64,000 nucleotides of DNA from the NCBI GenBank assembly GCA_030158125.1, contig JAOATL010000024.1:62001-126000 (forward strand). The letters are read 5' to 3'. A program made the position numbers and the translations under genes. Positions 10,806 through 25,453 of the stretch are shown piece by piece (positions within the stretch are counted from its first letter, which is position 1; the number at the start of each line of letters is the position of its first letter). This DNA comes from Limnohabitans sp. (GTDB lineage: Bacteria; Pseudomonadota; Gammaproteobacteria; Burkholderiales; Burkholderiaceae_C). The notes under the pieces were generated by a model. The model saw nothing but the letters and a program-made list of their open reading frames with translations. It was not told the origin of the DNA and did no database searches.

Positions 10806-13196
10806 ATGAACATCGTCTGCCTAGGGGGCGGCCCCGCCGGTTTGTACTTCGGCCTGTTGATGAAACTGCGTCATCCAGAACACAAGATCACGGTGTTAGA
10901 GCGCAACAAACCCTACGACACCTTTGGTTGGGGGGTGGTGTTTTCCGATGCCACCATGTCCAAGCTGCAAGTGGCCGATCCAGTGACAGCGTCCGAAATT
11001 TTGGGCGCGTTCAACCATTGGGATGACATTGCGGTGCATTTCAAGGGCGAAACCATGCGCTCCAGTGGTCATGGTTTTTGCGGCATTGGCCGCAAGCGCT
11101 TGCTCAATATTTTGCAAAAGCGTTGCGAGCAACTGGACGTTGAGTTGGTGTTTGAGAGCGAGGTGGATGCCAATGCTGACATCGGTGCACGCTACAACGC
11201 CGACCTGGTGATTGCATGCGACGGCATCAACTCCAAAGTGCGCACCCGGTTTGAAAAGACCTACAAACCAGACATCGACGAACGCAAATGCCGCTTTGTG
11301 TGGCTGGGTACGCGCAAGTTGTTTGACGCGTTCACTTTTGCCATTGAAGAAACCGAGCACGGCTGGTTTCAGGCGCACGCCTATCAGTTTGATGGCGACA
11401 CCTCCACCTTCATTGTGGAAACGCCCGAGTCCGTTTGGAAAGCAGCAGGGTTTGAAACCATGACGCAAGAAGAGTCGGTCGCTTTTTGTGAAAAGTTGTT
11501 TGCCAAGTACTTGGACGGCAATGCCCTGATGACCAACGCCAAGCATTTGCGAGGTTCTGCGCATTGGATCAAATTCCCCCGTGTGATTTGCGACCAGTGG
11601 GTGCATTGGGACACCTCGGCCGATGGTCGTGAGGTGCCCTATGTGCTGATGGGCGATGCCGCGCACACCGCGCATTTCTCCATTGGCTCTGGCACCAAGC
11701 TGGCCCTGGAAGATGCCATCGAATTGGCCGATACCTTTGAGCGCGTGGGCCACGATGTGAAGGGCATGAAAGAGGTGATGACGGCTTACCAAGCCACACG
11801 CTCTGTCGAGGTGCTGAAGATTCAAAATGCCGCGCGCAATTCCACCGAGTGGTTTGAAAACGTGGCGCGCTATGTCAACTTGCCGCCGCAGCAATTTGCC
11901 TATTCATTGCTCACGCGCAGTCAGCGCATTTCTCATGAAAACTTGCGTCTGCGCGACGATCAATTTGTTGCCGCCTACGAGCGCTTCATGGCGTCCTTGG
12001 TCAACTTTGACGACAGTACCCGCGCCAAGTCAACGCCGCCCATGTTCTTGCCCTTGCAAGCGCGCGGCATTACCTTGAAGAATCGCGTGATGGTGTCACC
12101 CATGGCCACGTACTCGGCCGTCGATGGCTTGCCTGGCGACTTTCACTTGATGCATTACGGCGCGCGTGCTGTAGGCGGGGCCGCCATTGTGTTTACAGAA
12201 ATGACTTGCGTCACACCGGAGGGGCGCATCACGCCCGGTTGTCCTGGCTTGTGGAATGACGAGCAGCAACAAGCCTGGGCACGCATTGTGAGTTTTGTAC
12301 ATGCGCAGTCCGATGCCAAGATGGCCTTGCAGCTGGGCCATGCCGGGCGCAAAGGTTCAACGCGCCGCGCATGGGATGGCATTGACATGCCTTTGAACGA
12401 TGTCGCGCGCGATGGCAGCAACTGGCCTTTGATGGCACCTTCTGCGTTGCCCTACATGGCAGGTGTGAGCCAGGTGCCGCATGAAATGACGCGTGCCGAC
12501 ATGGACAACATGTTGGCGGCGTTTGTGGCCGCGGCTGAGCGGGGCGCCAAAGCTGGATTCGATTGGTTAGAGCTGCATTGCGCCCACGGCTATGTGTTGT
12601 CTGGTTTTATTTCGCCACTCACCAATCACCGCACAGATGAATTTGGCGGATCCTTGGAAAATCGATTGCGCTTTCCCTTGGCGGTGTTTGTGGCCCTGCG
12701 CAAAGTGTGGCCGCAAGACAAGCCGATGTCTGTGCGCATTTCGGCGCACGACTGGGTGGAAGGCGGCATCACGCCAGACGATGCCATCGAGATTGCCAAA
12801 CAATTCAAAGCCGCCGGTGTCGATTTTGTGGACTGCTCATCAGGCCAGGTGGACAAGCGTGAGAAGCCCGTGTATGGCCGCATGTTCCAAACGCCATTTG
12901 CCGACCGCATTCGCAACGAAGCGGGCGTGCGCACCATTGCGGTGGGTGCCATCTCGGAAGCAGACCATGTGAACAGCATCATTGCAGCGGGCCGTGCCGA
13001 CTTGTGTGCGGTGGCGCGGCCGCATTTGGCCAATCCCTCATGGACGATGCAAGAGGCCGCGCGCATTGGGTACACCGATTTGAACTGGCACAAGGCCTAT
13101 GTGTCGGGCAAGCGCCAGATGGAAACCAACTTCGATCGTGCAGCCGCCATGGCCGCCATGAGTGCTTCACCAGCAGCCGCCAAAGGAGAAAATTGA
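10806..13196 (+). CDS. 2-aminobenzoyl-CoA monooxygenase/reductase-like fusion (FAD monooxygenase + old yellow enzyme)
   Basis: This 796-residue protein joins two flavoenzymes. Residues 1 to about 390 are a class A FAD monooxygenase: [10 protein letters not shown] dinucleotide motif at residues 6-15 and [17 protein letters not shown] near 275-290. Residues of about 405-770 are an old-yellow-enzyme/2,4-dienoyl-CoA reductase barrel ([45 protein letters not shown]). The combination is that of 2-aminobenzoyl-CoA monooxygenase/reductase of Azoarcus evansii, which hydroxylates and then reduces the ring. Related proteins are often labelled salicylyl-CoA 5-hydroxylase. The CoA ligase and beta-oxidation genes downstream support the anthranilate assignment. 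Start: GACAAGGAGC precedes the ATG. Confidence 0.85.
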
Positions 13197-13975
13197 TGCG
13201 TCATGTGTGGATTACGGGCGCAGGCCGAGGCATTGGTGCGGCCGTGGCACATGCCTTTGCAAGAGAAGGCGCGGCACTGAGTTTGTCGGGGCGCAACATG
13301 CAGACCTTGGCCGCGCAAGCGCTTGAATTGCGCAAGGCCTACCCGGATGTCAAGCTGCACCTGAGCGCCATGGACTTGGGCGATCCTGAATCCGTTGCCG
13401 CGGCACATCGCGCCAACCAAACCGCTTTAGGCCCTGTCACGGTGTTGGTGAACAACGCGGGGCAAGCGCTCAGTCAGCCATTTGCCAAAACCGATTTGCA
13501 GCTTTGGCAGCAGATGTTGAGTGTGAATCTCACGGGCACCTATTTGTGCATTCAATCTGCGCTGCCAGATTTGTTGGCGCAAGCCGCTGCAGGACAAGTT
13601 GCACGGATTGTGAACATTGCCAGCACAGCAGGCTTGAAGGGTTATGCGTATGTGTCCGCTTATGCAGCGGCCAAACACGGCGTGATTGGCTTGACGCGCA
13701 GCTTGGCTTTGGAGTTGGCACACAAAGGTGTGACGGTCAACGCGGTCTGCCCAGGTTTTACAGAGACCGACATCGTGCGCGACGCCATTGCCAACATTGT
13801 GGCCAAAACAGGCCAAAGCGAAGCGCAAGCGCGCGATGCGTTGGTGGCGCACAACCCGCAGAAAAAAATGATTCAGCCCGATGAGGTGGCGCAAGCGGTG
13901 ATGTGGTTGTGCAGCGATGCAGCCGCCTCGGTGAATGGTCAATCAATCGCCGTAGACGGCGGGGAGACGATGTGA
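13196..13975 (+). CDS. Short-chain dehydrogenase/reductase (SDR)
   Basis: A 259-residue classical SDR: TGAGRGIGAAVA cofactor motif at residues 7-18, NNAG near residue 89, and YAAAKHG with catalytic Tyr and Lys near residue 155. The Gly-rich motif lacks an obvious Arg pattern for NADP, so NAD is likelier. It begins at the ATG of a TGATG overlap with the fusion monooxygenase, so it is translationally coupled. In this operon it probably acts as the 3-hydroxyacyl-CoA dehydrogenase of the ring-opening beta-oxidation steps; the substrate is inferred only from context. Confidence 0.85.
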   Translation: MRHVWITGAGRGIGAAVAHAFAREGAALSLSGRNMQTLAAQALELRKAYPDVKLHLSAMDLGDPESVAAAHRANQTALGPVTVLVNNAGQALSQPFAKTDLQLWQQMLSVNLTGTYLCIQSALPDLLAQAAAGQVARIVNIASTAGLKGYAYVSAYAAAKHGVIGLTRSLALELAHKGVTVNAVCPGFTETDIVRDAIANIVAKTGQSEAQARDALVAHNPQKKMIQPDEVAQAVMWLCSDAAASVNGQSIAVDGGETM

Positions 13976-14478
13976 TGGCGCACTATGAGAGTTTGAAAAT
14001 CAATGCCGATCATGAGTTCAGAGCGCATGCAGATCAGCACGCCTCTTTGCGCCTGTGGCTGCGCTTGTTGTCGTGCACCACGCGCGTAGAAGACAAGATT
14101 CGGCAAAAGTTGCGCGAGACCTTTGACATCACCTTGCCGCGCTTCGATTTGATGGCGCAACTCGAGCGTCACCCCGATGGGCTCACCATGGGGGAATTGT
14201 CGCGCCGCATGATGGTCACGGGTGGCAACATCACCACCATTGTGGACCAGTTGGAAAAAGAGAGCTTGGTGCAGCGGCAAGTGGGCGCGAACGACCGCAG
14301 GTCCTTCACGGTCAAGTTGACCAAGGCTGGTCGTGATGCATTTGCAGGCATGGCCATTGCCCATGAAGCTTGGGTGGCCGACCTGTTCACTGGCCTGTCA
14401 GAGAACCAACAAAGTCAGCTTTATACCTTGCTGGGCGCACTGAAAAAGAATTTACAAAAACAAGAGGAGACCGTATGA
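13975..14478 (+). CDS. MarR-family transcriptional regulator
   Basis: A 167-residue winged-helix regulator. It has [34 protein letters not shown] as its DNA-recognition region, then the wing [15 protein letters not shown]. The gene overlaps the SDR stop (TGATG) and its own stop overlaps the next gene (ATGA), so it is made with the enzymes. MarR proteins in aromatic-CoA operons commonly repress until a CoA thioester binds. The likely target is the palindrome at 10747-10774. Confidence 0.87.
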
Positions 14479-15335
14479 GCCAAACCTACTTACCGGGTGT
14501 ACCGCACCAATTGCCGCGTCATGGCAACAAACTGGCCAACTACAAAGCCGAGCATGTGCTGTTTGAAGTGAAGGATGGCGTGGCCACACTCACGCTCAAC
14601 CGTCCTGAGCGCAAAAATCCTTTGTCGTTTGAATCGTATGCGGAGATGCGAGACTTGTTCCGCGCTTTGTCGTATGCCGATGATGTGCATGCCGTGGTGG
14701 TCACAGGCGCTGGGGGCAATTTTTGCTCGGGTGGTGATGTGCATGAAATCATTGGCCCGCTCACCAAACTGGACATGCCTGGCTTGCTGACTTTCACACG
14801 CATGACGGGTGACTTGGTCAAGGCCATGCGCGCATGCCCGCAGCCCATCATTTCGGCCATTGATGGCATTTGTGCCGGTGCTGGCGCATTGCTGGCACTC
14901 GCGTCTGACATGCGTTATGGCACAGCACGCAGCAAAACGTATTTCTTGTTTAACAAAGTGGGCTTGGCAGGTTGCGACATGGGTGCCTGCGCCTTGTTGC
15001 CGCGTGTGATTGGGCAGGGCCGCGCATCGGAGTTGTTGTACACCGGCCGTGGCCTGCCTGGCGAGGAAGCAGAGCGCTGGGGTTTTTACAATCGCGTGTG
15101 CACCCCCGAGACCGTGTTGGCCGAAGCGCAAGCCATGGCGAATGTTCTGGTCAGTGGCCCCACATTTGCCAACGGCATGACCAAAAAGATGCTGCAACAA
15201 GAGTGGAACATGGGCGTCGACGAAGCCATTGAAGCAGAAGCCCAAGCGCAAGCCATCTGCATGGCCACCAACGATTTCCACCGGGCGTATCACGCCTTTG
15301 TGGCCAAACAAACGCCGGTGTTTGAAGGAAACTGA
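14475..15335 (+). CDS. Enoyl-CoA hydratase/isomerase family protein
   Basis: This 286-residue crotonase-family protein has [23 protein letters not shown] at the N-terminus and the oxyanion-hole region [20 protein letters not shown]. The second conserved segment is [26 protein letters not shown]. In the anthraniloyl-CoA pathway it would hydrate or hydrolytically open the alicyclic CoA intermediate. The start is the ATG of an ATGA overlap with the marR gene; the acyl-CoA dehydrogenase ATG follows its stop by 2 bp. Confidence 0.88.
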
Positions 15336-15337
15336 AC

Positions 15338-16507
15338 ATGAATTCAAGTGCACATTTGGCGTGGCCGTTTTTTGATGAACACCACCGCAGTTTTAAAACC
15401 AATCTGCAGACTTGGACAAACAAACAGTTTGCAGGCCTGCACGGACACGATGAATCACGCGAGGCGATTGACCGCGAATGCGTGAGCTTGGTCAAGGCCT
15501 TGGGGCAAGGCGGGTGGCTCAAGCCTGCCATTGCCGGCAAGGCCCACGGCGGCGCTGCCGATGTGATCGACACACGCACCATCTGCATGTTGCGCGAAGA
15601 ATTGGCTTGGCACCACGGCTTGGCTGATTTTGCGTTTGCCATGCAGGGTTTGGGTTCGGGGGCCATCAGTTTGAAGGGCACACCAGAACAACAAGCAGAA
15701 TACTTGCCCCGCGTGGCCAAAGGCGAGGCCTTGGCTGCGTTTGCTTTGAGCGAACCCGATGCAGGCTCGGATGTGGCGGCGATGCAGTGCAGCGCTGTTG
15801 AAACGGCTGAAGGTTATCGCTTGAATGGTTTCAAGACTTGGATTTCCAATGGTGGCATTGCCGATTTTTACGTGGTGTTTGCACGCACGGGTGAAGCGCC
15901 AGGTGCGCGTGGCATCAGCGCTTTCATTGTGGATGCCAACTCACCAGGTTTGGAGATCGCCGAGCGCATCGATGTGGTGGCGCCGCACCCCTTGGCCAAA
16001 TTGCATTTCAACAACGTGCTGGTGCCACATGCCAAGCGCATTGGCGCAGCCGGTGAAGGCTTCAAAGTGGCCATGGCCACTTTGGATGTGTTCAGAACTT
16101 CAGTGGCGGCCGCATCGCTCGGCTTTGCACGCCGCGCACTGGACGAGTCGATTGCATGGGCCAAGCAACGCAAGATGTTTGGCCAAGCCTTGGGTGATTT
16201 TCAAATTACACAAAGCAAGCTGGCGCAAATGGCCACGCTGCTCGATGCAGCTACCTTGCTAACCTACCGTGCGGCCTGGCTGCGCGATCAAGGCCAACGC
16301 ATCACGCAAGAGGCGGCCATGGCCAAAATGACCGCCACCGAAAACGCCCAGAAAATCATCGACATGGCCGTGCAAATGCACGGCGGCATGGGCGTTAAGA
16401 AAGGTTGCATCGTCGAGTCTTTGTACCGAGAGATTCGGGCCTTGCGCATTTACGAAGGTGCCACCGAGGTTCAGCAACTGATCATTGGCCGCGATTTGCT
16501 CAAGTGA
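15338..16507 (+). CDS. Acyl-CoA dehydrogenase
   Basis: A 389-residue FAD acyl-CoA dehydrogenase. It shows [15 protein letters not shown] and [19 protein letters not shown] in the middle domain. The C-terminal [34 protein letters not shown] keeps the canonical catalytic Glu (about residue 373) in YEGATE. The N-terminal 20 residues (Trp/Phe/His-rich) are atypical. It lies 2 bp after the enoyl-CoA hydratase gene. It probably oxidises an alicyclic or opened-ring acyl-CoA in 2-aminobenzoate breakdown. Confidence 0.88.
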
Positions 16508-16515
16508 GGTCACAC

Positions 16516-18213
16516 ATGACGCCATCTCTTTCAACTTCTTTGGCACCCTCCTCGCACGTGGACACTTTCACGCGCGATAACTTACCGCCGCAAGACCAGT
16601 GGCCTGAGTTTGTCTTTGATCGTCCCGAAGTTCAGTACCCTGAACAACTCAATTGTGTTCAAGGCTTGTTGGATGCGCATGTGGCCAATGGCTTGGGTGA
16701 CCGCGTGGCGGTGCGCGGCATGGATGCCGCTGGTGACATCTGCTGGACGTATGCCCAACTGCAAGCCAAGGTCAACCAAATTGCACAGGTGCTGGTCACC
16801 GACATGGGCATGACGTCTGGGCAGCGTTTGCTGCTGCGCGGCGGCAACAGCCCCATGATGGCGGCTTGTTTTTTGGCGGCGCTCAAGGCGGGCTTGGTGG
16901 TGGTGCCCACCATGCCCTTGCTGCGCGCAGCCGAGCTCAAGCAGATCATTGACAAAGCCCAGGTGAGTGCGGCACTGTGCGACAGTTTGTTGGCAGAAGA
17001 ACTCAGCCATTGCACAAATGCCGAACATCCGCACCATGCGGCTGCGTTAAAGCAAGTGCGGCGGTTCAGGTCTGAAGAGGCCGCAGGCGTGGAAGCAAGC
17101 ATGGCCAAGCATGCGGCAACTTTTGAAGCGCACCCTACCAGTCGTGACGATGTGTGTTTGATCGCCTTTACCAGTGGCACCACAGGCCAACCCAAAGGCA
17201 CGATGCATTTTCACCGCGACATACTGGCGATGTGCGACTTGTTCCCACGCCATGTTTTGAAAATGGACGCCAACGACATTGTGTGTGGCACACCGCCCAT
17301 CGCTTTCACTTTTGGTCTGGGCGGCTTGCTTGCATTTCCATTGCGTTTTGGCGCTTGTGCTGTGCTGCTTGAAAAGTACACGCCCGAATCTTTGTTACAT
17401 GCCGTGGGGCAGTACGCTGCCACGCAGTGTTACACGGCGCCCACCATGTACCGACAAATGGCCATGTTGGTGACAGACAAACCCGAAGGCTTCAATTTGA
17501 AGTCTTTGAAGCACACGGTCTCCGCCGGCGAAGCCTTGCCAGATGCCACCCGTCAGTTGTGGAAAAAAGCCACAGGCTTGGAAATGACCGATGGCATTGG
17601 TGGCACCGAAGTGATTCACATCTACATCTCTAGCGCGGGACACGATGTGCGTGCCGGCAGCATTGGCAAAGTGGTGCCAGGTTATCAAGCCCAAATCGTG
17701 GACGAAGACATGCAACCCGTACCGCCGGGTGTGGTGGGGCGCTTGGCTGTGCGGGGCCCAACAGGTTGCCGTTACTTGGACGATCCGCGCCAAAAGGATT
17801 ACGTCAAAAACGGCTGGAACTTGCCCGGCGACACCTTCATGATGGACGCTGATGGCTACTTCAGTTACCAAGCGCGCAACGACGACATGATCATTTCAGC
17901 GGGTTACAACATTGCTGGCCCCGAGGTGGAGGGCGCCTTGATGCAACACCCCGCTGTGGCGGAATGTGGCGTGGTGGGCGCAAGTGACATTGAGCGCGGC
18001 CAAGTGGTGATGGCCTTTGTGGTGCTCAAGCCAGGGCATGCCGGTTCGCCTGCACTGGAAAAAGAAATTCAAGAGTTTGTGAAGCAAACCATTGCACCCT
18101 TCAAGTATCCAAGGCGTGTGGTGTTTTGCGACACCCTGCCGCGCACCGAAACAGGCAAGTTGCAGCGCTTTAAATTACGGCAGCAAGCGCCTGCCTTCAA
18201 TTCAGAAAAATAA
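16516..18213 (+). CDS. 2-aminobenzoate (benzoate-type) CoA ligase
   Basis: An AMP-forming CoA ligase of 565 residues. It has the P-loop-like LIAFTSGTTGQPKGTMHFHRD (A3), GGTEVIHIYIS (A5) and YFSYQARNDDMIISAGYNIAGPEVE (A7/A8), and ends with ETGKLQRFKLR carrying the catalytic Lys. Overall similarity is to benzoate/2-aminobenzoate-CoA ligases. It would start the pathway by making anthraniloyl-CoA. The chosen ATG is 8 bp after the preceding stop, with GAGG upstream; the open frame extends further 5' inside the dehydrogenase gene but is a shadow there. Confidence 0.86.
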   Translation: MTPSLSTSLAPSSHVDTFTRDNLPPQDQWPEFVFDRPEVQYPEQLNCVQGLLDAHVANGLGDRVAVRGMDAAGDICWTYAQLQAKVNQIAQVLVTDMGMTSGQRLLLRGGNSPMMAACFLAALKAGLVVVPTMPLLRAAELKQIIDKAQVSAALCDSLLAEELSHCTNAEHPHHAAALKQVRRFRSEEAAGVEASMAKHAATFEAHPTSRDDVCLIAFTSGTTGQPKGTMHFHRDILAMCDLFPRHVLKMDANDIVCGTPPIAFTFGLGGLLAFPLRFGACAVLLEKYTPESLLHAVGQYAATQCYTAPTMYRQMAMLVTDKPEGFNLKSLKHTVSAGEALPDATRQLWKKATGLEMTDGIGGTEVIHIYISSAGHDVRAGSIGKVVPGYQAQIVDEDMQPVPPGVVGRLAVRGPTGCRYLDDPRQKDYVKNGWNLPGDTFMMDADGYFSYQARNDDMIISAGYNIAGPEVEGALMQHPAVAECGVVGASDIERGQVVMAFVVLKPGHAGSPALEKEIQEFVKQTIAPFKYPRRVVFCDTLPRTETGKLQRFKLRQQAPAFNSEK

Positions 18214-18223
18214 GGAACGAAAA

Positions 18224-18628
18224 ATGTCACAAGGCATGTTGCGAGTACTTCAACCAGATGGCTGGGCGCCCGCCAAAGGCTATGCCAATGGCATTGCCGC
18301 ACGAGGTGAAATGATTTTTGTCGCCGGCATGATTGGCTGGAATGGCCAGTGCCAATTTGAAACCGATGACTTCGTGGCACAGTGCAAACAAGCGCTGCAA
18401 AACATTGTGGCCACACTGGCGTGTGCCGGCGCCGGGCCTGAGCACATGGCCCGCATGACGTGGTATGTAAAAGACAAAAAAGAGTACGTGGCGCGTGGCC
18501 GCGAACTGGGCAAGGTGTACCAAGAGGTGATGGGCAAAAACTATCCTGCCATGACCTTGGTTCAGGTGGCCGACTTGGTGGAAGACCGTGCTTTGGTAGA
18601 GATTGAAGTGACGGCCGTTAAGCCTTGA
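18224..18628 (+). CDS. RidA/YjgF/TdcF-family protein (probable enamine/imine deaminase)
   Basis: A 134-residue RidA-superfamily protein (FVAGMIGWNGQCQFETDDFVAQCKQALQNI and VQVADLVEDRALVEIEVTAV). RidA proteins hydrolyse reactive enamines and imines. The product of the monooxygenase/reductase, 2-amino-5-oxocyclohex-1-ene-carboxyl-CoA, is an enamine, so release of ammonia at this stage is a natural role (inference). The canonical RidA Arg105 context (SARxAV) is replaced, as in several catabolic subfamilies. AAGGAA precedes the ATG. Its 3' end overlaps the convergent marR gene by 11 bp. Confidence 0.85.
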   Translation: MSQGMLRVLQPDGWAPAKGYANGIAARGEMIFVAGMIGWNGQCQFETDDFVAQCKQALQNIVATLACAGAGPEHMARMTWYVKDKKEYVARGRELGKVYQEVMGKNYPAMTLVQVADLVEDRALVEIEVTAVKP

Positions 18629-19055
18629 CAACCAGCTTTTGCAAAATGGTTTTGAGCGACGCACTGTGTGCGTTGCCCAATAATTGAAGCACTTGCTGCT
18701 CATGCAGCGCTGCTTTTTTTAAAAGTGGTGTGACGCGTTTTTTGCCTTGCACGGTAAGGCTTACCCAGGCTTGACGCTTGTCTTGTGTGCAGGCCGTGCG
18801 AATCAGCAATCCATCGGCTTCCATGCGCAGCAACATTTTGGTGACAGTGGGTTGCTTGGCCAGCACAATGTCGACCAGTTCGCCCACGGTGCGTTGCTTC
18901 ACACCCGACAATGCAGCCAAGATACGCCACTCTGACACTGTAAAGCCAGCTGCTTCTACTTGGGCATGAAACTCTGACGAGATGCTGAAGCTGGCCCGTG
19001 CCAGCAGGTAGGGCAAATAACTGTCAACGAATTCGACCGTTTGCACGCGGCTCAA
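18618..19055 (-). CDS. MarR-family transcriptional regulator
   Basis: A 145-residue MarR-type regulator. The winged helix includes VSEWRILAALSGVKQRTVGELVDIVLAKQPTVTKMLLRME, with the wing TACTQDKRQAWVSLTVQGK. It is cotranscribed with the flavin reductase (ATGA overlap) and divergent from the NicX-like operon; the NicR regulator of nicotinate catabolism is also MarR-type. The palindrome at 19587-19600 between the two divergent units is a likely operator. It differs clearly in sequence from the MarR at 13975. Confidence 0.86.
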   Translation of the reverse strand: MSRVQTVEFVDSYLPYLLARASFSISSEFHAQVEAAGFTVSEWRILAALSGVKQRTVGELVDIVLAKQPTVTKMLLRMEADGLLIRTACTQDKRQAWVSLTVQGKKRVTPLLKKAALHEQQVLQLLGNAHSASLKTILQKLVVKA

Positions 19056-19576
19056 CCTGCTAGCTTTTGGACGCTAGAAAAGCCGCCCTGCTGGTACACC
19101 AAAGGCGAGCCATCGGCAAAGCCGCAGCGCTCAACTTCACCCACAAAAATGATGTGATCACCTTCAGGGTACTGGCTGCGGTTGCGGCATTCAAACCAGG
19201 CCAATGCCCCCTTCAGGATGGGCAAGCCGGCGACGCCCAATTCGTAGTCAATGCCATTGAACCGATCGCCTTGTCCAAATGCAAATTGCTGGCAAGCCGG
19301 CAACTGCTGGTCACTCAGGACATTGATGACATAGTGCGATGCTTTTTGAAACGAGGGCACAGTGCGTGAGTTCAGTCCCAAACTCCAAACCACCAAGGGC
19401 GGCGTGAGCGAGACGCTGTTGAATGAGCTGGCCGTTAGACCCACAAATGAGTGACCCCATTCTGCGGGATTGGCGTCGCCACCTTGGTGAGTGGTGATGA
19501 CCGACACACCGGTGGGAAAGCGCGACAAAGCTTGCTTGAATTGGGGGGTGTCGATGGGGGTGCTAGGGGAATTCAT
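19052..19576 (-). CDS. Flavin reductase (HpaC/FMN-binding split-barrel family)
   Basis: A 174-residue flavin reductase domain protein (FPTGVSVITTHQGG, GLTASSFNSVSLTPPLVVWSL, HYVINVLSDQQ). These NAD(P)H:flavin oxidoreductases supply reduced flavin to two-component monooxygenases. No classical monooxygenase partner is adjacent; the best candidate is the acyl-CoA-dehydrogenase-fold protein at 21575. The ATG at 19576 was chosen because upstream codons fall in the divergent promoter region. Its stop overlaps the following MarR start. Confidence 0.87.
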   Translation of the reverse strand: MNSPSTPIDTPQFKQALSRFPTGVSVITTHQGGDANPAEWGHSFVGLTASSFNSVSLTPPLVVWSLGLNSRTVPSFQKASHYVINVLSDQQLPACQQFAFGQGDRFNGIDYELGVAGLPILKGALAWFECRNRSQYPEGDHIIFVGEVERCGFADGSPLVYQQGGFSSVQKLAG

Positions 19577-19586
19577 GAGGCCATTG

Positions 19587-19600
19587 TATGAAATTTCATA
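19587..19600. promoter_or_regulatory. Perfect 14-bp palindrome in the divergent promoter region
   Basis: TATGAAATTTCATA is its own reverse complement and lies in the 84-bp gap between the flavin reductase/marR pair and the NicX-like operon. AT-rich palindromes of this size are typical MarR operators. It sits 11 bp from the flavin reductase ATG, so it would mainly block leftward transcription and could also affect the rightward unit. Confidence 0.6.
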
Positions 19601-19660
19601 TAAACTGGTTGAACTATTTAAAAACCACTTTTCACATGAGTGGCATCCCAAGGAGTGGTC

Positions 19661-20746
19661 ATGCTGATTGAGCAAATTGAACATCGATGGTTAGACGCTT
19701 TTGAGCGCACATTTGCCCTTTGCAAAATTCAAGAGGGCGATGTGGTGGCCTTGCTCACCGAAAGCCAGTCGCGCCGCGTCAATGTTGATTTGGCACGCAT
19801 CACTTTGCAGCGCATGGGCACCAAAATCTTTGAGGTGTGTTTGCCCACGCCGGCCTTGTCGGCCCCTGCGCCGGTTCGCTCAACGGGCGCCACCGATGTC
19901 ATTCAACAGCTGGTGCCCGTGGTGGCAGCCCTGCAGCGCGCCAATGTCGTGATCGATTGCACGGTAGAAGGCATGTTGCATGCGCCAGAGCTGCCGGCCA
20001 TTTTGAAGGGCGCCGACGGCGTGGTGCCGCGCTTGTTCATGATTTCCAACGAGCACCCCGAAATATTGGAGCGCACCGTGCCCCATCCTGCGCTGGAGTC
20101 GGTGGTGCGCAATGCCATGAAAAAGTTGCGCGGCACACAGCACATGCATGTGACTTCCAAAGCGGGTACCGATTTGAACATTCAGTTGAAGTCGGCCGTG
20201 GTGGGCGGCGTCTGGGGTTTTTGCAGCAAGCCTGGCATGGTGTCACACTGGCCCGGGGGCTTGGCTTTGGCCTTTCCCGCCGCTGGCAGTGTCAACGGCA
20301 CCTTGGTGATGGCGCCTGGCGATGTCAACCTCACCTTTAAGCGTTATTTGCGCGACACCATTCGCCTCACCATTGAAAACGACACCATCACTCAAATTGA
20401 CGGCGAGGGCGTGGACGTTGACATGATGCGTTCGTACTACCAAACCTGGATTGACAAAGAAGGCCATCGCGATGCCTGTGCGGTGTCGCATGTGGGCTTT
20501 GGTTTGAATCCTGCTGCGCGTTGGGATGCCATGACTTTTTACGACAAGCGCGATTGCAACGGCACCGAGCTGCGTGCATTTGCCGGCAACTTTTTGTACT
20601 CCACCGGCGCCAATGAGGTGGCGGGGCGTCACACGCTGGGACATTTTGATTTGCCCATGCGGGGCTGCACCATTGCGTTGGATGGCCAGTGCGTGGTGAA
20701 CGAAGGTGTGTTGGTAGCGGGTGTGTTTGAAAGTCCTGCAGCATGA
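19661..20746 (+). CDS. NicX-like non-heme iron ring-cleaving dioxygenase (M29-fold)
   Basis: This 361-residue protein belongs to the M29 aminopeptidase fold, but its closest recognisable relatives are 2,5-dihydroxypyridine 5,6-dioxygenases (NicX/Hpo). The NicX iron ligands are conserved: His277 in SHVGFGLNP, and His328 and Asp330 in GHFDLPM. Other shared stretches are KAGTDLNI, WPGGLALAFP, GTLVMAPGDV and AFAGNFLYSTG. It is therefore probably an oxygenase, not a peptidase. It heads a four-gene operon (hydrolase, ACAD-fold protein, CoA ligase). AAGGAG before the ATG at 19661 supports this start over a GTG at 19640. The substrate is unknown. Confidence 0.78.
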   Translation: MLIEQIEHRWLDAFERTFALCKIQEGDVVALLTESQSRRVNVDLARITLQRMGTKIFEVCLPTPALSAPAPVRSTGATDVIQQLVPVVAALQRANVVIDCTVEGMLHAPELPAILKGADGVVPRLFMISNEHPEILERTVPHPALESVVRNAMKKLRGTQHMHVTSKAGTDLNIQLKSAVVGGVWGFCSKPGMVSHWPGGLALAFPAAGSVNGTLVMAPGDVNLTFKRYLRDTIRLTIENDTITQIDGEGVDVDMMRSYYQTWIDKEGHRDACAVSHVGFGLNPAARWDAMTFYDKRDCNGTELRAFAGNFLYSTGANEVAGRHTLGHFDLPMRGCTIALDGQCVVNEGVLVAGVFESPAA

Positions 20747-21558
20747 TGGTCGACACACCTGCTTGGATCGAGGCTGGCCCTGCTGATGCCAAAACCACAC
20801 TGGTGTTTTTGCACGGCATTGGTGGTGGCAAAAAAGGATTCCAATCTGCCGTCGACTACTTTGCCAGCTTGGGATGCCGCGCCTTGGCGTGGGACATGCC
20901 GGGTTATGGTGACAGCCCTCTCACGGGCACACTCAGCTTTGCCAGTTTGGCGCAATCCCTTGAGCAGCTGCTAGACAGCGCCCACGTTAAAAAGGCGGTG
21001 CTGGTGGGGCACAGCATGGGCGGCATGGTGGCCTTGCAAGCGTGGACTCGTTGCCCGCAACGCATTGAAGGCTTGATCATTGCCGCTAGCAGCCCCGCCT
21101 TTGGGCAACAAGATGGCGATTTTCAGCAGCAGTTCGTGGCCCAGCGTTTGGCACCTTTGAATGCTGGCAAAACCATGGCGCAAGTGGCCGATCGATTGGT
21201 GCCCAGCATGGTGGCGCCTGATGCGCTGCCTGCCGGTGCAAGCTTGAAAGACTATCCCGCGGGCTTGGCCTTGGCGCACGCATGCATGTCGGCTGTGCCA
21301 CCCGACACTTACCGTGCGTCCTTGCAAGCCTTGGTTACTTTTGAGCAGCGCGCTGCATTGCCCAGCATTGCCGTGCCCACCCTGTGCTTGGCCGGTGAGC
21401 ACGACAAAACAGCGCCCCCCGAGGTGCTGCGGCGCATGGCGCAAAAGATCCCAGGCGCGCAGTACGAATGCCTGCCTGGCGTCGGTCATTTGATGGGCTT
21501 CGAGCAAGAAGCACCATTTCATCAAGCCGTCTTGAAATTTGTCCGTCATTATTTTTGA
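20743..21558 (+). CDS. Alpha/beta hydrolase
   Basis: A 271-residue alpha/beta-hydrolase: oxyanion region LVFLHGIGGGKKGF, nucleophile elbow GHSMGG (Ser about residue 89), Asp in GEHDKTAPP and His in GVGHLMG, so the triad is complete. It overlaps the dioxygenase stop by ATGA. In the nicotinate pathway NicX is followed by the hydrolase NicD (N-formylmaleamate deformylase), so a role on the ring-cleavage product is likely. Generic hydrolases of this type also include carbon-carbon bond (MhpC-like) enzymes. Confidence 0.82.
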   Translation: MMVDTPAWIEAGPADAKTTLVFLHGIGGGKKGFQSAVDYFASLGCRALAWDMPGYGDSPLTGTLSFASLAQSLEQLLDSAHVKKAVLVGHSMGGMVALQAWTRCPQRIEGLIIAASSPAFGQQDGDFQQQFVAQRLAPLNAGKTMAQVADRLVPSMVAPDALPAGASLKDYPAGLALAHACMSAVPPDTYRASLQALVTFEQRAALPSIAVPTLCLAGEHDKTAPPEVLRRMAQKIPGAQYECLPGVGHLMGFEQEAPFHQAVLKFVRHYF

Positions 21559-21574
21559 GTTGAAGGAAACCTTC

Positions 21575-22855
21575 ATGAGCAACAGCACAACCCTCCCCGC
21601 CTACAACAGCACAGCCAACTACATGCCCATCAGTGGTGAAGACTATCCCCTGACCGACAAGCAAAAAAAGCTGATGGCCTTGGCCTACGATTTGGGCAAA
21701 AACAAATTTGCACCTCGTGCAGCGCAACTTGATCGCGACGCACAGTTTCCCTTTGAAAATTACAAAGACATGAAAGACAGCGGTTTGCTGGCTTTGTGTG
21801 TGCCCGAAGCACATGGCGGCTTGGGTGCCGACTACGCCACCTATGCCATGGTGTCTGCAGAAATTGGCCGCTGGTGTGGCGCCACCGCCCTCACGTTCAA
21901 CATGCACGTCTGCACCATGATGTGGAGTGGTTTGCTGTCTGAAGACTTGGACATGACGCCCGAGCAGCGCGCCTTGCACCGCGTGCATCAAAAGGCGCAC
22001 TTTGCACGTGTGGTCAACGATGGGGCCATTTATGCACAACCGTTTTCTGAAGGCGGCGCTGCCGCTGCAGGCGCACAACCATTTGGCACGCAAGCCGTCA
22101 AAGTGGACGGCGGTTGGCGCATCAATGGCAAAAAGATTTTTGCGTCCTTGTCAGATGCGGCAGATTATTTTGGCGTGCTGTGCACTGAGAAAAAACCCGA
22201 TGCCGATTTGTCGCGCCGCGACACCCTCTACTTGGCGGTGCCGCGCACAGCGCCAGGACTCACGGTAGAAGGTGACTGGGATCCCTTGGGCATGCGTGCC
22301 ACGGTGTCGCGCAATTTGGTGTTCAAAGATGTGTTTGTGCCAGACGACGCGGCACTCATGCCGCAAGGTGTGTATTTCCAAGCGGCCAGCCGCTGGCCGC
22401 ACATGTTCATGACCTTGTCACCCACTTACATGGGCATTGCGCAGGCCGCCTACGATTTCACTGTGGCGTATTTGCGCGGCGAAATTCCGGGCACAGGCCC
22501 CGTCAAGCGCCGTCAGTTTGCCACCAAACAAATTGCCGTGGCAGAAATGTTTGTGAAGCTGGAGCAAACCCGCAATTTGTTTTTGCGCGCCATCGAAGAT
22601 GCCAAAATTGACCCGCCCAAATCTTCGCGCCTGCGTGCCTATGCGGCGCAGTACACCATCATGGAAAACGCACAAGACATCGCGCGCTTGGCCATTCGCA
22701 CCTGTGGTGGTCAGTCGATGCTCAAGTCTTTGCCGCTAGAACGTTTGTACCGTGATGCGCGATGTGGTTCTCTCATGCTGCCGTGGACTGCCGAGTTGTG
22801 CCTCGACCGATTGGGCCGCGAAACTTTGTACGAAGCAGGTGAGAAAGACGAATGA
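21575..22855 (+). CDS. Acyl-CoA dehydrogenase-fold flavoprotein lacking the canonical catalytic Glu
   Basis: A 426-residue ACAD-superfamily protein (CVPEAHGGLGADYATYAMVSAEIGR, WRINGKKIFASLSDAADYFGV, ERLYRDARCGSLMLPWTAE). Aligned by eye, the IYEGT motif that carries the catalytic Glu in most ACADs becomes SLMLPWT (residues 399-405), with Leu402 near the Glu position. The GTxEIQ continuation is also lost. It may use a Glu from another helix, as isovaleryl-CoA dehydrogenase does, or be an ACAD-fold monooxygenase fed by the nearby flavin reductase. GAAGGAAA precedes the ATG; the stop overlaps the ligase start. Confidence 0.8.
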   Translation: MSNSTTLPAYNSTANYMPISGEDYPLTDKQKKLMALAYDLGKNKFAPRAAQLDRDAQFPFENYKDMKDSGLLALCVPEAHGGLGADYATYAMVSAEIGRWCGATALTFNMHVCTMMWSGLLSEDLDMTPEQRALHRVHQKAHFARVVNDGAIYAQPFSEGGAAAAGAQPFGTQAVKVDGGWRINGKKIFASLSDAADYFGVLCTEKKPDADLSRRDTLYLAVPRTAPGLTVEGDWDPLGMRATVSRNLVFKDVFVPDDAALMPQGVYFQAASRWPHMFMTLSPTYMGIAQAAYDFTVAYLRGEIPGTGPVKRRQFATKQIAVAEMFVKLEQTRNLFLRAIEDAKIDPPKSSRLRAYAAQYTIMENAQDIARLAIRTCGGQSMLKSLPLERLYRDARCGSLMLPWTAELCLDRLGRETLYEAGEKDE

Positions 22856-24399
22856 ACGAAAGTTCAAAATTAGCGCAAGCCTTTAAAGCGCTTGCGCAAG
22901 GTCAGCCGCAGCACCTGGCCATTCGCTTTGGCATGCCAGGGCAGACGCAAGACATTGACTTTGCCAAATTTTGGCGACGGGTTGAACGCGTCACAGGCCA
23001 TCTGCAGGCCACCTTGGGTTTGCAGGCGGGCCAACGCGTGGCGTGGCTTGGTTTGAACCATGAGTTGCAATGTGTCACCTTGGTCGCCTGCGCGCGCCTG
23101 GGTTTGATTTTCATGCCGCTCAATTTTCGATTGGCGGTGGCCGAGCTCCACATGGTGTTGCAAGATGCGCAGCCCAGTGTGTTGGTCTATGACGACATGC
23201 ACGCCGTGGCGGCCAAGGCCTTGATGCAAGATGGCCACGTCTTCGTGCTCAAGGCGTGCGGCTTAGACGATTTGATTTCGACATCGTCGCCCAAAAACCT
23301 CAACTTGCCAGAGGTGTCAGACGACGCCGATGTGCTCTTGGTTTACACCTCGGGTACAACCGGGTTGCCCAAAGGCGCTGTGCATACCCAGGCGGGTCTG
23401 CTGGCCAACGCCCAAGCCAGCCAAGAGGCGCACGCGTTCAAGCCGCAAGACATCGTGCTGTCGACTTTGCCCATGTTTCATGTCGGCGGACTTTGCATTC
23501 AGACCTTGCCTGCATTGTTGTCCGGTGTCTCCGTTCATTTGCATCCCCGGTTTGATGCCGCCGAGTGGCTGACAGCGGTCACGCAGGGCGACATGTCGCA
23601 GCGGCCCACCTTGTCCTTGTTGGTGCCCGCCACTTTAAGGGCGGTGCTGGACCACCCCGACTGGCCTTCGGCAGATCTGCAGAGTTTGCGCGGCATCATG
23701 GCAGGGTCTTCCACCTTGCCGGTGTCGTATTTGAAAATGTTTCATGCGCGCGGCATTCCGGTGGGGCAAATTTATGGCGCCACCGAAACCGGTCCTGTCA
23801 GTGTCATTTTGAAATTTCAAGATGCTGTGGCCCGCATTGGTTTTGCGGGTTGGCCACATGCCAACTTGTCATTGAAACTGGTCGATGCGCAAGGCCAAGA
23901 CGTGCCACAAGGTGAGACGGGTGAGGTTTGTGTGAAAGCACCCAATGTGATGCGCGGGTATTGGAATGCGCGCAATCCCAAAGACTTGACGGGTTTACAC
24001 AATGGCTGGTTTCACGCCGGTGACATGGGTTACTTGGATGCACAAGGCTGCTTGCAAATTGTGGGGCGCAACAAGGACATGATTATTTCGGGCGGGGAAA
24101 ATATTTACCCTGCTGAAATTGAAAATGCTTTGGCGTCTTTTGCAGGGGTGGCGGAATGTGCGGTTGTGGGTTTGCCAGATGAGCGCTGGGGTGAGGTGCC
24201 GGTGTTGGTGCTGGTGAAGGCCACGGGCCAGACCTTGCAAACCCAAGCAGTGATGGCGCATCTGCAGGCGCAGATTGCCCGCTTTAAGTTGCCACGGCGG
24301 GTGGTGTTGCTTGAGCAGCTGCCCAAAAGTGCTTTGGGCAAAGTGCAAAAGGCCGTGCTCCAACAGCAATTGGCATCCATGCCCGAGACATCTGCATAA
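22852..24399 (+). CDS. AMP-forming acyl/aryl-CoA ligase
   Basis: A 515-residue ANL-family ligase: VLLVYTSGTTGLPKGAVHTQAG (A3), GQIYGATETGPVS (A5), WFHAGDMGYLDAQGCLQIVGRNKDMIISGGENIYPAEIE (A7/A8) and a C-terminal PKSALGKVQKAVL with the catalytic Lys. It resembles medium/long-chain and aryl-CoA ligases but the acid it activates cannot be read from sequence. ATGA overlap with the ACAD-fold gene puts it last in the NicX-like operon. It differs from the benzoate-type ligase at 16516. Confidence 0.84.
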   Translation: MNESSKLAQAFKALAQGQPQHLAIRFGMPGQTQDIDFAKFWRRVERVTGHLQATLGLQAGQRVAWLGLNHELQCVTLVACARLGLIFMPLNFRLAVAELHMVLQDAQPSVLVYDDMHAVAAKALMQDGHVFVLKACGLDDLISTSSPKNLNLPEVSDDADVLLVYTSGTTGLPKGAVHTQAGLLANAQASQEAHAFKPQDIVLSTLPMFHVGGLCIQTLPALLSGVSVHLHPRFDAAEWLTAVTQGDMSQRPTLSLLVPATLRAVLDHPDWPSADLQSLRGIMAGSSTLPVSYLKMFHARGIPVGQIYGATETGPVSVILKFQDAVARIGFAGWPHANLSLKLVDAQGQDVPQGETGEVCVKAPNVMRGYWNARNPKDLTGLHNGWFHAGDMGYLDAQGCLQIVGRNKDMIISGGENIYPAEIENALASFAGVAECAVVGLPDERWGEVPVLVLVKATGQTLQTQAVMAHLQAQIARFKLPRRVVLLEQLPKSALGKVQKAVLQQQLASMPETSA

Positions 24400-24405
24400 A
24401 TAAGT

Positions 24406-24445
24406 CTTGGCAACTTGCGCGATGCGGCTATCCCGGATTGCCAAG
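24406..24445. repeat. 8-bp inverted repeat between CoA ligase and dehalogenase-like gene
   Basis: CTTGGCAA at 24406-24413 and TTGCCAAG at 24438-24445 are exact inverted copies around a 24-nt spacer. It fills most of the 73-bp gap. It may be an operator or a weak attenuating hairpin; there is no T-run. Confidence 0.4.
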
Positions 24446-24472
24446 CGTTTCGAATAACCCGAAAATCTGGCC

Positions 24473-25453
24473 ATGCACACACCGCCAACAGATTCTTCGA
24501 CGGCCCAAACCCTGGACGCCCCCGGCACATGGTTTGATGGCTTTGAAAAACGTCAGTTCAACGTCAATGGCGTGGTGGTGTGCGCACGCATCTCTGCCCA
24601 CTGGTTGAATCAAATGGACAAGCCTGTGCTGGTGTTGTTGCATGGCTTTCCGCAAACGCATGTGATGTGGCATCGTGTGGCGCAGGCGCTCAAAAACGAC
24701 TACCGATTGGTGTTGCCCGATTTGCGCGGCTATGGCGATTCGTCGCATGCCCCGGGCTTGCCCGATCACAGCAACTACAGCAAGCGTGCCATGGCGCAAG
24801 ACGTGGTGGGTTTGCTAGACCAATTGAATGTGGACAATTTCTTTTTGTGCGGTCACGACCGCGGCGGTCGTGTCGCGCATCGATTGGCTGTGGACTATGC
24901 TGCGCGTGTGCGTCGTCTGTGTGTGCTCGATATTGCGCCAACTCTAGACATGTACAAGCGCACCGACATGGACTTTGCACGCGCCTACTATCACTGGTTC
25001 CATCTCATTCAACCCTGCCCCTTGCCCGAACGCATGATTGGCGGCAATGTGTTGCATTACTTGCATGCCAAGTTGGGCGGTTGGGGGTCAGGGACGACGT
25101 CGTTCATTGAGCCCGAGGCCATGGCCGAGTACGAACGCAGCCTCACCTTGGCGCCGGAGCAAGCCGGTGACATCTTGCCTGCGGTGCACACGGCGTGTGA
25201 AGACTACCGCGCCAGTGCTGGCATCGATTTAGCGCACGATCAAGAAAGCCGCGCACAAGGCCAGAAAATTCAGTGCGACTTGCTGGTCTTGTGGGGTGAC
25301 CGCGGTGTGGTGCACAAAATGTTCAAGCCGCTGGAACTTTGGCAGGCGCAATGCGCTGCGCACGTCTCGGGCCATGTGGTGCCATCCGGGCATTTCATTC
25401 CAGAAGAGTTGCCACACCGCACCATTGAAAGCCTTCGCACCTTCATGGTGTGA
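24473..25453 (+). CDS. Fluoroacetate dehalogenase-like alpha/beta hydrolase
   Basis: A 326-residue alpha/beta hydrolase whose residues match fluoroacetate dehalogenases (FAcD of Rhodopseudomonas palustris/Burkholderia). It has the nucleophile Asp129 in GHDRGGR, the carboxylate-binding Arg130 and Arg133, and Asp153 in VLDI. The halide-pocket residues are His174 and Trp175 in YHW and Tyr245 in EDYRA; the catalytic His307 is in GHFIPEE. Conserved GxP context (QPCPLPERMIGG) also matches. Hydrolysis of fluoroacetate or another 2-haloacid is predicted; epoxide hydrolase activity is a possible alternative for this branch. It has about 20 extra N-terminal residues. Confidence 0.82.
   Translation: MHTPPTDSSTAQTLDAPGTWFDGFEKRQFNVNGVVVCARISAHWLNQMDKPVLVLLHGFPQTHVMWHRVAQALKNDYRLVLPDLRGYGDSSHAPGLPDHSNYSKRAMAQDVVGLLDQLNVDNFFLCGHDRGGRVAHRLAVDYAARVRRLCVLDIAPTLDMYKRTDMDFARAYYHWFHLIQPCPLPERMIGGNVLHYLHAKLGGWGSGTTSFIEPEAMAEYERSLTLAPEQAGDILPAVHTACEDYRASAGIDLAHDQESRAQGQKIQCDLLVLWGDRGVVHKMFKPLELWQAQCAAHVSGHVVPSGHFIPEELPHRTIESLRTFMV

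Follow-up and report, generated by a model that had tools for sequence, protein, structure and literature searches.

What is a NicX-type ring-cleavage enzyme doing beside an acyl-CoA dehydrogenase (ACAD)-fold flavoprotein, a CoA ligase and a MarR regulator? This gene set, termed here the NicX-like locus, lies in a 64,000-nucleotide stretch of Limnohabitans sp. DNA (order Burkholderiales; assembly GCA_030158125.1, contig JAOATL010000024.1, positions 62,001 to 126,000), the whole of which is called the window below. The chances are roughly even that the locus turns an indole acid, most likely indole-3-acetic acid (IAA), into anthranilate or anthraniloyl-CoA, and that it represents a third type of aerobic locus. 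The fuller proposal is more tentative: a third aerobic auxin system, distinct from iac and iad and lacking a Rieske enzyme, with NicX-type ring opening and entry into metabolism via anthraniloyl-CoA. We infer substrate, order of steps, regiochemistry, operator function and every activity from gene context, sequence and predicted fold. The locus comprises the following features, the last of them accessory:

18618..19055, minus strand: MarR2, a MarR regulator of the IadR (auxin-sensor) type, with relatives 7kki/7kfo and 3cdh in the Protein Data Bank (PDB)
19052..about 19576, minus strand: flavin reductase (PF01613, E 1.6e-39); the start is taken as the ATG ending at 19576, and the longest open reading frame (ORF) extends to 19684
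19587..19600, strandless: palindrome TATGAAATTTCATA, proposed operator in the gap that separates the flavin reductase gene from the divergent NicX-like gene
19661..20746, plus strand: NicX-like protein, proposed to open rings as an Fe(II) dioxygenase; its relatives carry the annotation 'peptidase M29'
20743..21558, plus strand: ABH1, alpha/beta hydrolase, proposed deformylase (PF00561, E 8e-29)
21575..22855, plus strand: ACAD2, ACAD-fold flavoprotein with ACAD Pfam domains, proposed group D monooxygenase
22852..24399, plus strand: Lig2, AMP-binding acyl/aryl-CoA ligase (PF00501, E 1e-75)
24473..25453, plus strand: ABH2, second alpha/beta hydrolase, accessory (PF00561)

A first-pass annotation, made from the letters alone, had recognised six of these genes (MarR, flavin reductase, NicX-like, hydrolase, ACAD-fold and CoA ligase) and placed them correctly, but the locus is wider than it supposed, an anthraniloyl-CoA cluster starting at 10806 having been overlooked. 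Its statements that an alpha/beta hydrolase directly follows the NicX-like gene and that a MarR protein controls the set agree with the positions of ABH1 and of MarR2, which is of the IadR type and stands beside the set. It had also noted that nicC, nicE and nicF are missing; none was found among the ten proteins scanned (15338-25453), the rest of the window not having been scanned for them.

The ring-cleavage assignment rests on sequence, fold and metal site. NicX (PDB 7cn3) is the only convincing PDB sequence relative of the NicX-like protein (E 1.2e-50), and no Pfam or NCBIfam model matched at E 0.001, the M29 profile included. The AlphaFold2 model (predicted local distance difference test score 85.9) has a template modelling (TM) score of 0.85 to NicX (E 4e-37) and of 0.55-0.59 to M29 aminopeptidases. 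The iron ligands His277, His328 and Asp330 (residue numbers count from the ATG at 19661), which the earlier annotation had seen to be kept, are invariant in 18/18 aligned sequences, including three of the true-NicX-like group. This alignment contained the window and 17 of 31 loci; two of the 31 are the window itself, and twelve were left out, three of which have an in-frame TGA. Taken together, sequence and model suggest that the protein is a NicX-type Fe(II) ring-cleavage dioxygenase.

A second oxygenase is probably formed by ACAD2 and the flavin reductase. In 13/13 ACAD2 sequences (the window aligned with 13 of 31 loci; only this position was examined as catalytic base) another residue stands in place of the catalytic YEG glutamate, which the controls, ACAD1 and a GcdH-like protein, retain. 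The loss of the dehydrogenase glutamate is as expected for a two-component oxygenase and, with a flavin reductase encoded next door, makes a group D two-component flavin monooxygenase the simplest reading of the pair, in keeping with the oxygenase logic proposed earlier. IacA of the iac auxin pathway belongs to the same class (PMC6165268, PMC7225977). The top NCBIfam models for the reductase, all scoring under cut-off, are the 4-hydroxyphenylacetate (HPA) hydroxylase, FerA and HsaB reductases. All PDB relatives of ABH1 are esterases and hydrolases of a general kind, from which no function is drawn for it. For Lig2, the nearest PDB relative is the feruloyl-CoA synthetase 8wev (325 bits).

One pointer to the substrate is the regulator. 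The best PDB relatives of MarR2 are Variovorax MarR_73 (7kki/7kfo, E 1e-29), also termed IadR, and the Ruegeria pomeroyi protein 3CDH (E 2e-20); 49/102 residues in the first alignment block are identical to MarR_73. In MarR_73, IAA is contacted by Y15, A18, W45, R46 and V65, and by S28, H32 and R46 (PMC9613470). The corresponding residues of MarR2 are Y13, Y16, S26, H30, W43, R44 and I63, so that the seven positions read YYSHWRI in MarR2, YASHWRV in MarR_73 and YYSHWRL in 3CDH. The window protein thus equals 3CDH at six of the seven contacts, the seventh being Ile for Leu, and of the MarR proteins tested in that study 3CDH bound IAA most strongly. The Ser/His/Arg set is retained in 80/105 locus records with a linked MarR2 (some genomes being counted twice). 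These residues suggest that MarR2 is an IadR-type regulator with an auxin-type pocket, whose nearest solved relatives are IAA-binding iad repressors.

A wider search for MarR2-like genes led mostly to iad and NicX-like loci. A match is present in 33/200 genomes of the family, and of 20 other MarR2-like loci that were fetched, 13 carry iad genes (12 with IadD, one with IadA only), five are NicX-like and two are neither. In a tree of MarR proteins, MarR2 and IadR group with full support against MarR1; 12/13 iad rows and one other row form a single clade (94/84), and the NicX-like rows do not form one (3 changes). The tree sample was picked by similarity to MarR2, and one of its 37 MarR rows was dropped.

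The flavin reductase and NicX-like genes diverge, and the gap between them holds a palindrome, TATGAAATTTCATA, which we propose as the MarR2 operator. The pattern TATGAANNTTCATA matches once in the 3.06-Mb genome, at this very site. For ATGAANNTTCAT, 2.58 Mb of fetched loci gave 84 occurrences and one base-shuffled control gave none; every occurrence is near the point where a MarR, flavin reductase or NicX-like gene begins (no more than 120 bases from the nearest match start). In the order, 84/104 NicX-like locus records with at least 700 bases upstream have it at the equivalent place. An operator shared with iad was considered and rejected, the exact ATGAANNTTCAT being found in 0/13 iad loci; a looser ATGA-N4-TCAT within 350 bp upstream of the MarR gene in 3/13 of them is suggestive only.

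The gene set is conserved, most strictly among close relatives. A species-level scan gave at least 570 relatives of the NicX-like protein, and the best 80 of these at least 570 loci were kept as a named set; loci too short for a given comparison (20 downstream, 20 upstream at 9.9 kb, seven at 2.6 kb) were dropped before counting. The closest named match of the window protein, among the matches listed, is 98% identical and comes from a Limnohabitans metagenome-assembled genome (L052; L numbers denote loci). Hydrolase, ACAD and ligase genes stand beside the NicX-like gene in 59/60 named loci with at least 5.2 kb beyond the gene middle. The first-pass annotation had named lack of conservation as grounds for refutation, and its gene set survives this check. 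The flavin reductase is present in 58/73 named loci with 2.6 kb upstream, and a relative of ABH2 in 23/80. In a sample of the order, 27/399 genomes match the NicX-like protein at E 1e-10: 16 have an adjoining ACAD2, five belong to a divergent group and six have true-NicX-like genes only. At the 16 loci ACAD2 adjoins the gene in 16/16, the hydrolase in 15/16 and the ligase in 12/16 (two more are cut by contig ends). A sample of the phylum gave matches at E 1e-62 in 19/398 genomes, of which five were already in the order sample and 14 provide new loci (L146-L159); here the set thins out, with ACAD2 within 20 kb in 12/14 and Lig2 in 7/14.

Several variant loci were seen in these comparisons. A Bug/TctC-type binding protein is encoded just 3' of the CoA ligase in L063, L078, L099 and L103; this family was found in 17/101 loci and hints at carboxylate uptake. 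The divergent NicX-like gene (about 45-51% identity) is accompanied by a hydrolase and a class A FAD monooxygenase in L048-L051 (fetched at 20 kb). L048 and L050 also encode a branched-chain-type binding protein close by, and genome size is about 2 Mb in three of the four. Rhizobiales plasmid loci keep the NicX-like, ACAD-fold and hydrolase genes. In L160 and L162 (Aminobacter and Ensifer plasmids) and in L155-L159, a glutamine-synthetase-like ligase is found and no Lig2; L160 and L162 also have an APC permease, and the Aminobacter variant adds a nitrilase-like protein and a gentisate-type cupin dioxygenase.

The genes directly upstream of the locus in the window form an aerobic anthraniloyl-CoA cluster (10806-18628):

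10806..13196, plus strand: AbmA-like 2-aminobenzoyl-CoA monooxygenase/reductase (NF006101, 1344.9 bits, cut-off 1078)
13196-13975: likely short-chain dehydrogenase/reductase (SDR) gene, between AbmA and MarR1; a simple ORF finder gave a longer frame
13975..14478, plus strand: MarR1, likely regulator of the anthraniloyl-CoA cluster; beside AbmA in several genera
14475..15335, plus strand: enoyl-CoA hydratase of the anthraniloyl-CoA cluster (NF006107, 483 bits, cut-off 330)
15338..16507, plus strand: ACAD1, acyl-CoA dehydrogenase with the catalytic YEG motif
16528..18213, plus strand: LigABA, anthranilate/benzoate-type CoA ligase (PDB 2v7b, E 6e-79; 4wv3, E 9e-77)
18227..18628, plus strand: RidA-type enamine/imine hydrolase (PF01042, E 2e-20)

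NCBI names the NF006101 model as bifunctional salicylyl-CoA 5-hydroxylase/oxidoreductase. Three grounds favour reading the AbmA-like protein as the 2-aminobenzoyl-CoA enzyme: the ligase, RidA, and the kyn genes in similar clusters of other genomes (KynA plus KynU in L166; KynU in L167 and L205). In work on a Cupriavidus, a 2-aminobenzoyl-CoA cluster is reported to be vital for anthranilate degradation (PMC6221969).

Anthranilate genes recur beside the NicX-like gene in two forms. Among the named loci, 60 have 9.9 kb upstream: anthraniloyl-CoA genes are found there in 26, kynBUA in 24, both in none and neither in ten. Cupriavidus and Pandoraea loci (L104-L118 and most of L120-L131) are those in which the kynBUA genes, leading from tryptophan to anthranilate, adjoin the cluster; for KynU, KynA and KynB, one protein each scored over its NCBIfam cut-off, and the other calls were made by similarity to these three. 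Near full-length AbmA is encoded in 30/30 NicX-like genomes examined (16 + 14; 29 over cut-off), and within 20 kb of the NicX-like gene in 14/30, representing five families. Kynureninase was tried as a genome-wide partner and rejected, being over cut-off in just 20/30. The physical linkage of AbmA is better evidence than a test of presence: AbmA occurs in 16/16 genomes with the locus and in 40/383 others (p 2.9e-15), a result confounded by family, as nearly every genome has AbmA in three of the four families involved.

Taken together, the anthraniloyl-CoA cluster, kynBUA and the IadR-type MarR favour as substrate an indole-type acid with anthranilate as its end product. A possible course is as follows. 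MarR2 would repress from the palindrome between the divergent genes and be released on binding the acid. ACAD2 and the flavin reductase would hydroxylate the indole ring, as IacA and IacG do; the NicX-like enzyme, with O2, would cleave the C2-C3 bond to give a product of the 2-formamidobenzoyl-acetate type, from which ABH1 would take off the formyl group. Lig2 would then form the CoA ester, and a thiolase would yield acetyl-CoA and anthraniloyl-CoA, the substrate of AbmA. This putative route resembles a bacterial one from IAA through 2-formaminobenzoylacetate to anthranilate (Tsubokura 1961), which is listed among pathways 'not well classified' in PMC11630574.

A number of observations weigh against this assignment. 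Co-occurrence with AbmA had to be dropped as proof, the gene being present in 11/12 genomes of family f1, 5/5 of f3 and 11/12 of f11; 5/6 genomes with only true-NicX-like genes have it too. In the pocket, MarR2 has Tyr at the position of Ala18 in MarR_73, as does 3CDH, and the Ser/His/Arg set is changed in 25/105 records (families f3, f11 and some of f1) though the enzymes remain. The MarR2 gene was found in just 2/14 of the more distant loci, which leaves the auxin link weakest outside the order, and the palindrome is absent from 20/104 order records and from 14/14 distant loci. Two of the 20 other MarR2-like loci are neither iad nor NicX-like, although one of them ends in a piece of an IadA gene. 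Three close Limnohabitans loci (L057, L058, L073) have neither MarR2 nor flavin reductase beside the NicX-like gene, and retain the anthraniloyl-CoA cluster with the NicX-like, hydrolase, ACAD and ligase genes. As to the enzymes, Foldseek ranks ordinary acyl-CoA dehydrogenases nearest to the ACAD2 model, the first named monooxygenase being at rank 20; this fold search does not separate oxygenase from dehydrogenase and was set aside as proof. Lig2 is just 26-29% identical to the iad ligase, and no thiolase was seen in the window cluster. Finally, the plasmid-borne Rhizobiales loci encode a glutamine-synthetase-like enzyme along with an APC permease, have no adjoining Lig2 and would fit an amine substrate better than IAA, and AbmA was over cut-off in 0/5 genomes of the divergent group. 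Both cases call for caution against calling every NicX-like gene an auxin gene, and the Rhizobiales variants and the divergent group may act on other substrates.

Five other explanations were weighed. In a quinolone/quinaldine-type pathway, ACAD2 would hydroxylate C3 of a 4-quinolone, the NicX-like enzyme would cleave the heterocycle and so produce an N-acylanthranilate, ABH1 would split it and Lig2 would activate the released fatty acid. This would also end in anthranilate beside AbmA, and the top NCBIfam score of Lig2, though under cut-off, is to a fatty-acid CoA ligase subfamily. Known ring opening of this type, however, uses cofactor-free alpha/beta hydrolases, and the IAA-binding type of MarR and the genes common with iad loci argue the other way, so that the idea is unlikely, if the least unlikely of the five. 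Indole or skatole itself is the next candidate: monooxygenation to an indoxyl, NicX-like cleavage to N-formylanthranilate and release of anthranilate by ABH1. N-formylanthranilate is an old proposed intermediate of indole breakdown (PMC6221969) and LigABA would feed AbmA, but the CoA ligase (in 59/60 close loci) and the carboxylate-binding residues of MarR2 would be left unexplained; the probability is low.

Equally low is that of a pyridine substrate, that is, a hydroxypyridine carboxylate or nicotinate analogue cleaved in the manner of NicX. The fold and iron site favour it, whereas the lack of nic partners among the ten proteins scanned, the anthranilate neighbours and the distance of the true-NicX-like group do not. 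The first-pass annotation had envisaged a CoA-linked route for a hydroxylated N-heteroaromatic or aminophenolic acid; the CoA link and the hydroxylated N-heteroaromatic class still stand, but pyridine carboxylates and aminophenolic acids are disfavoured by the anthranilate neighbours and the IadR-type MarR. A second anthranilate route, in which Lig2 or LigABA makes anthraniloyl-CoA, ACAD2 hydroxylates C5 and the NicX-like enzyme opens the para-aminophenol ring, might account for kynBUA alongside in Cupriavidus and Pandoraea. It is quite improbable, since near full-length AbmA is already present in all 30 genomes examined, and so often side by side (adjacent in five families). Least credible by far is an M29 aminopeptidase with coincidental neighbours: the annotation of its relatives speaks for it, against the TM scores, the missing M29 Pfam match and the conserved gene set.

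If degradation of an indole acid to anthranilate is the true function, the range of auxin consumers would be wider than supposed, above all in fresh water, and the system would occur commonly in freshwater Limnohabitans, in Cupriavidus and Pandoraea and in some alphaproteobacteria. Adjacent iacC/iacD homologues were the starting point of the main survey of genomes for auxin degraders (PMC9613470), to which a locus without these genes would be invisible. No description of the locus was found in the open-access literature (one library searched), and neither the skatole paper PMC11434297 nor a 5GJ7 search yielded anything bearing on it. The reading would also give NicX-type enzymes a role beyond pyridines and supply genes for the orphan 1961 route through 2-formamidobenzoylacetate. 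It predicts that carriers which have neither iac nor iad should detect indole acids and consume them.

How, then, does the locus compare with known systems? In the NicX system the neighbouring gene product, NicD, is an alpha/beta hydrolase. The window protein is like the 2,5-dihydroxypyridine dioxygenases NicX and HpdF in fold, iron ligands and the adjoining alpha/beta hydrolase, but the true-NicX-like group is only 34-38% identical to it and the gene neighbours differ. The aerobic anthraniloyl-CoA (abm) pathway, encoded directly upstream in the window, is a neighbour and likely sink, not the NicX-like module itself. The iac route reaches catechol with the help of a Rieske enzyme. Iac-like loci have a group D monooxygenase, IacA, with a reductase, IacG, and often a MarR (PMC7225977, PMC11630574), and end in catechol (PMC11630574); ACAD2 is likened to IacA by class, not by sequence.

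The iad-like locus of Variovorax (PMC9613470, PMC12633357) is close in regulation: both loci have an IadR-type MarR carrying the residues for the IAA carboxylate, a CoA ligase is common to both, and the end product is anthranilate in both, for the NicX-like locus as a proposal. In L205 and L206, iad loci lie directly beside the same kind of anthraniloyl-CoA cluster, L205 also having a kynureninase gene and L206 a MarR with the same pocket string as MarR2. In the iad pathway, a CoA ligase and a thiolase are believed to take off the side chain (PMC12633357, a preprint). Comparison with iad genes covered 13 loci (L146, L148, L152, L153, L155, L158, L164, L165, L204, L214, L215, L218, L219). In L146 and L148, two dehydrogenase genes separate Lig2 from the NicX-like gene; their best identities to iad-locus genes are 50-61%, and their iad relatives occur in seven and five of 13 iad loci. 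IadD and IadA were found in no NicX-like locus examined (IadE and IadB were not searched on their own). At genome level, IadD at 55% identity or more is present in 6/6 iad genomes besides the query's own and in 1/36 NicX-like genomes (another two reach 49-52%); in the window genome one match, of 38% identity, lies on another contig. A difference lies in how the ring is oxidised: iad has the Rieske enzyme IadDE, with IadA/IadB (indolepyruvate ferredoxin oxidoreductase) as further markers, and the NicX-like locus is proposed to use an ACAD-fold flavoprotein and a NicX-type enzyme instead.

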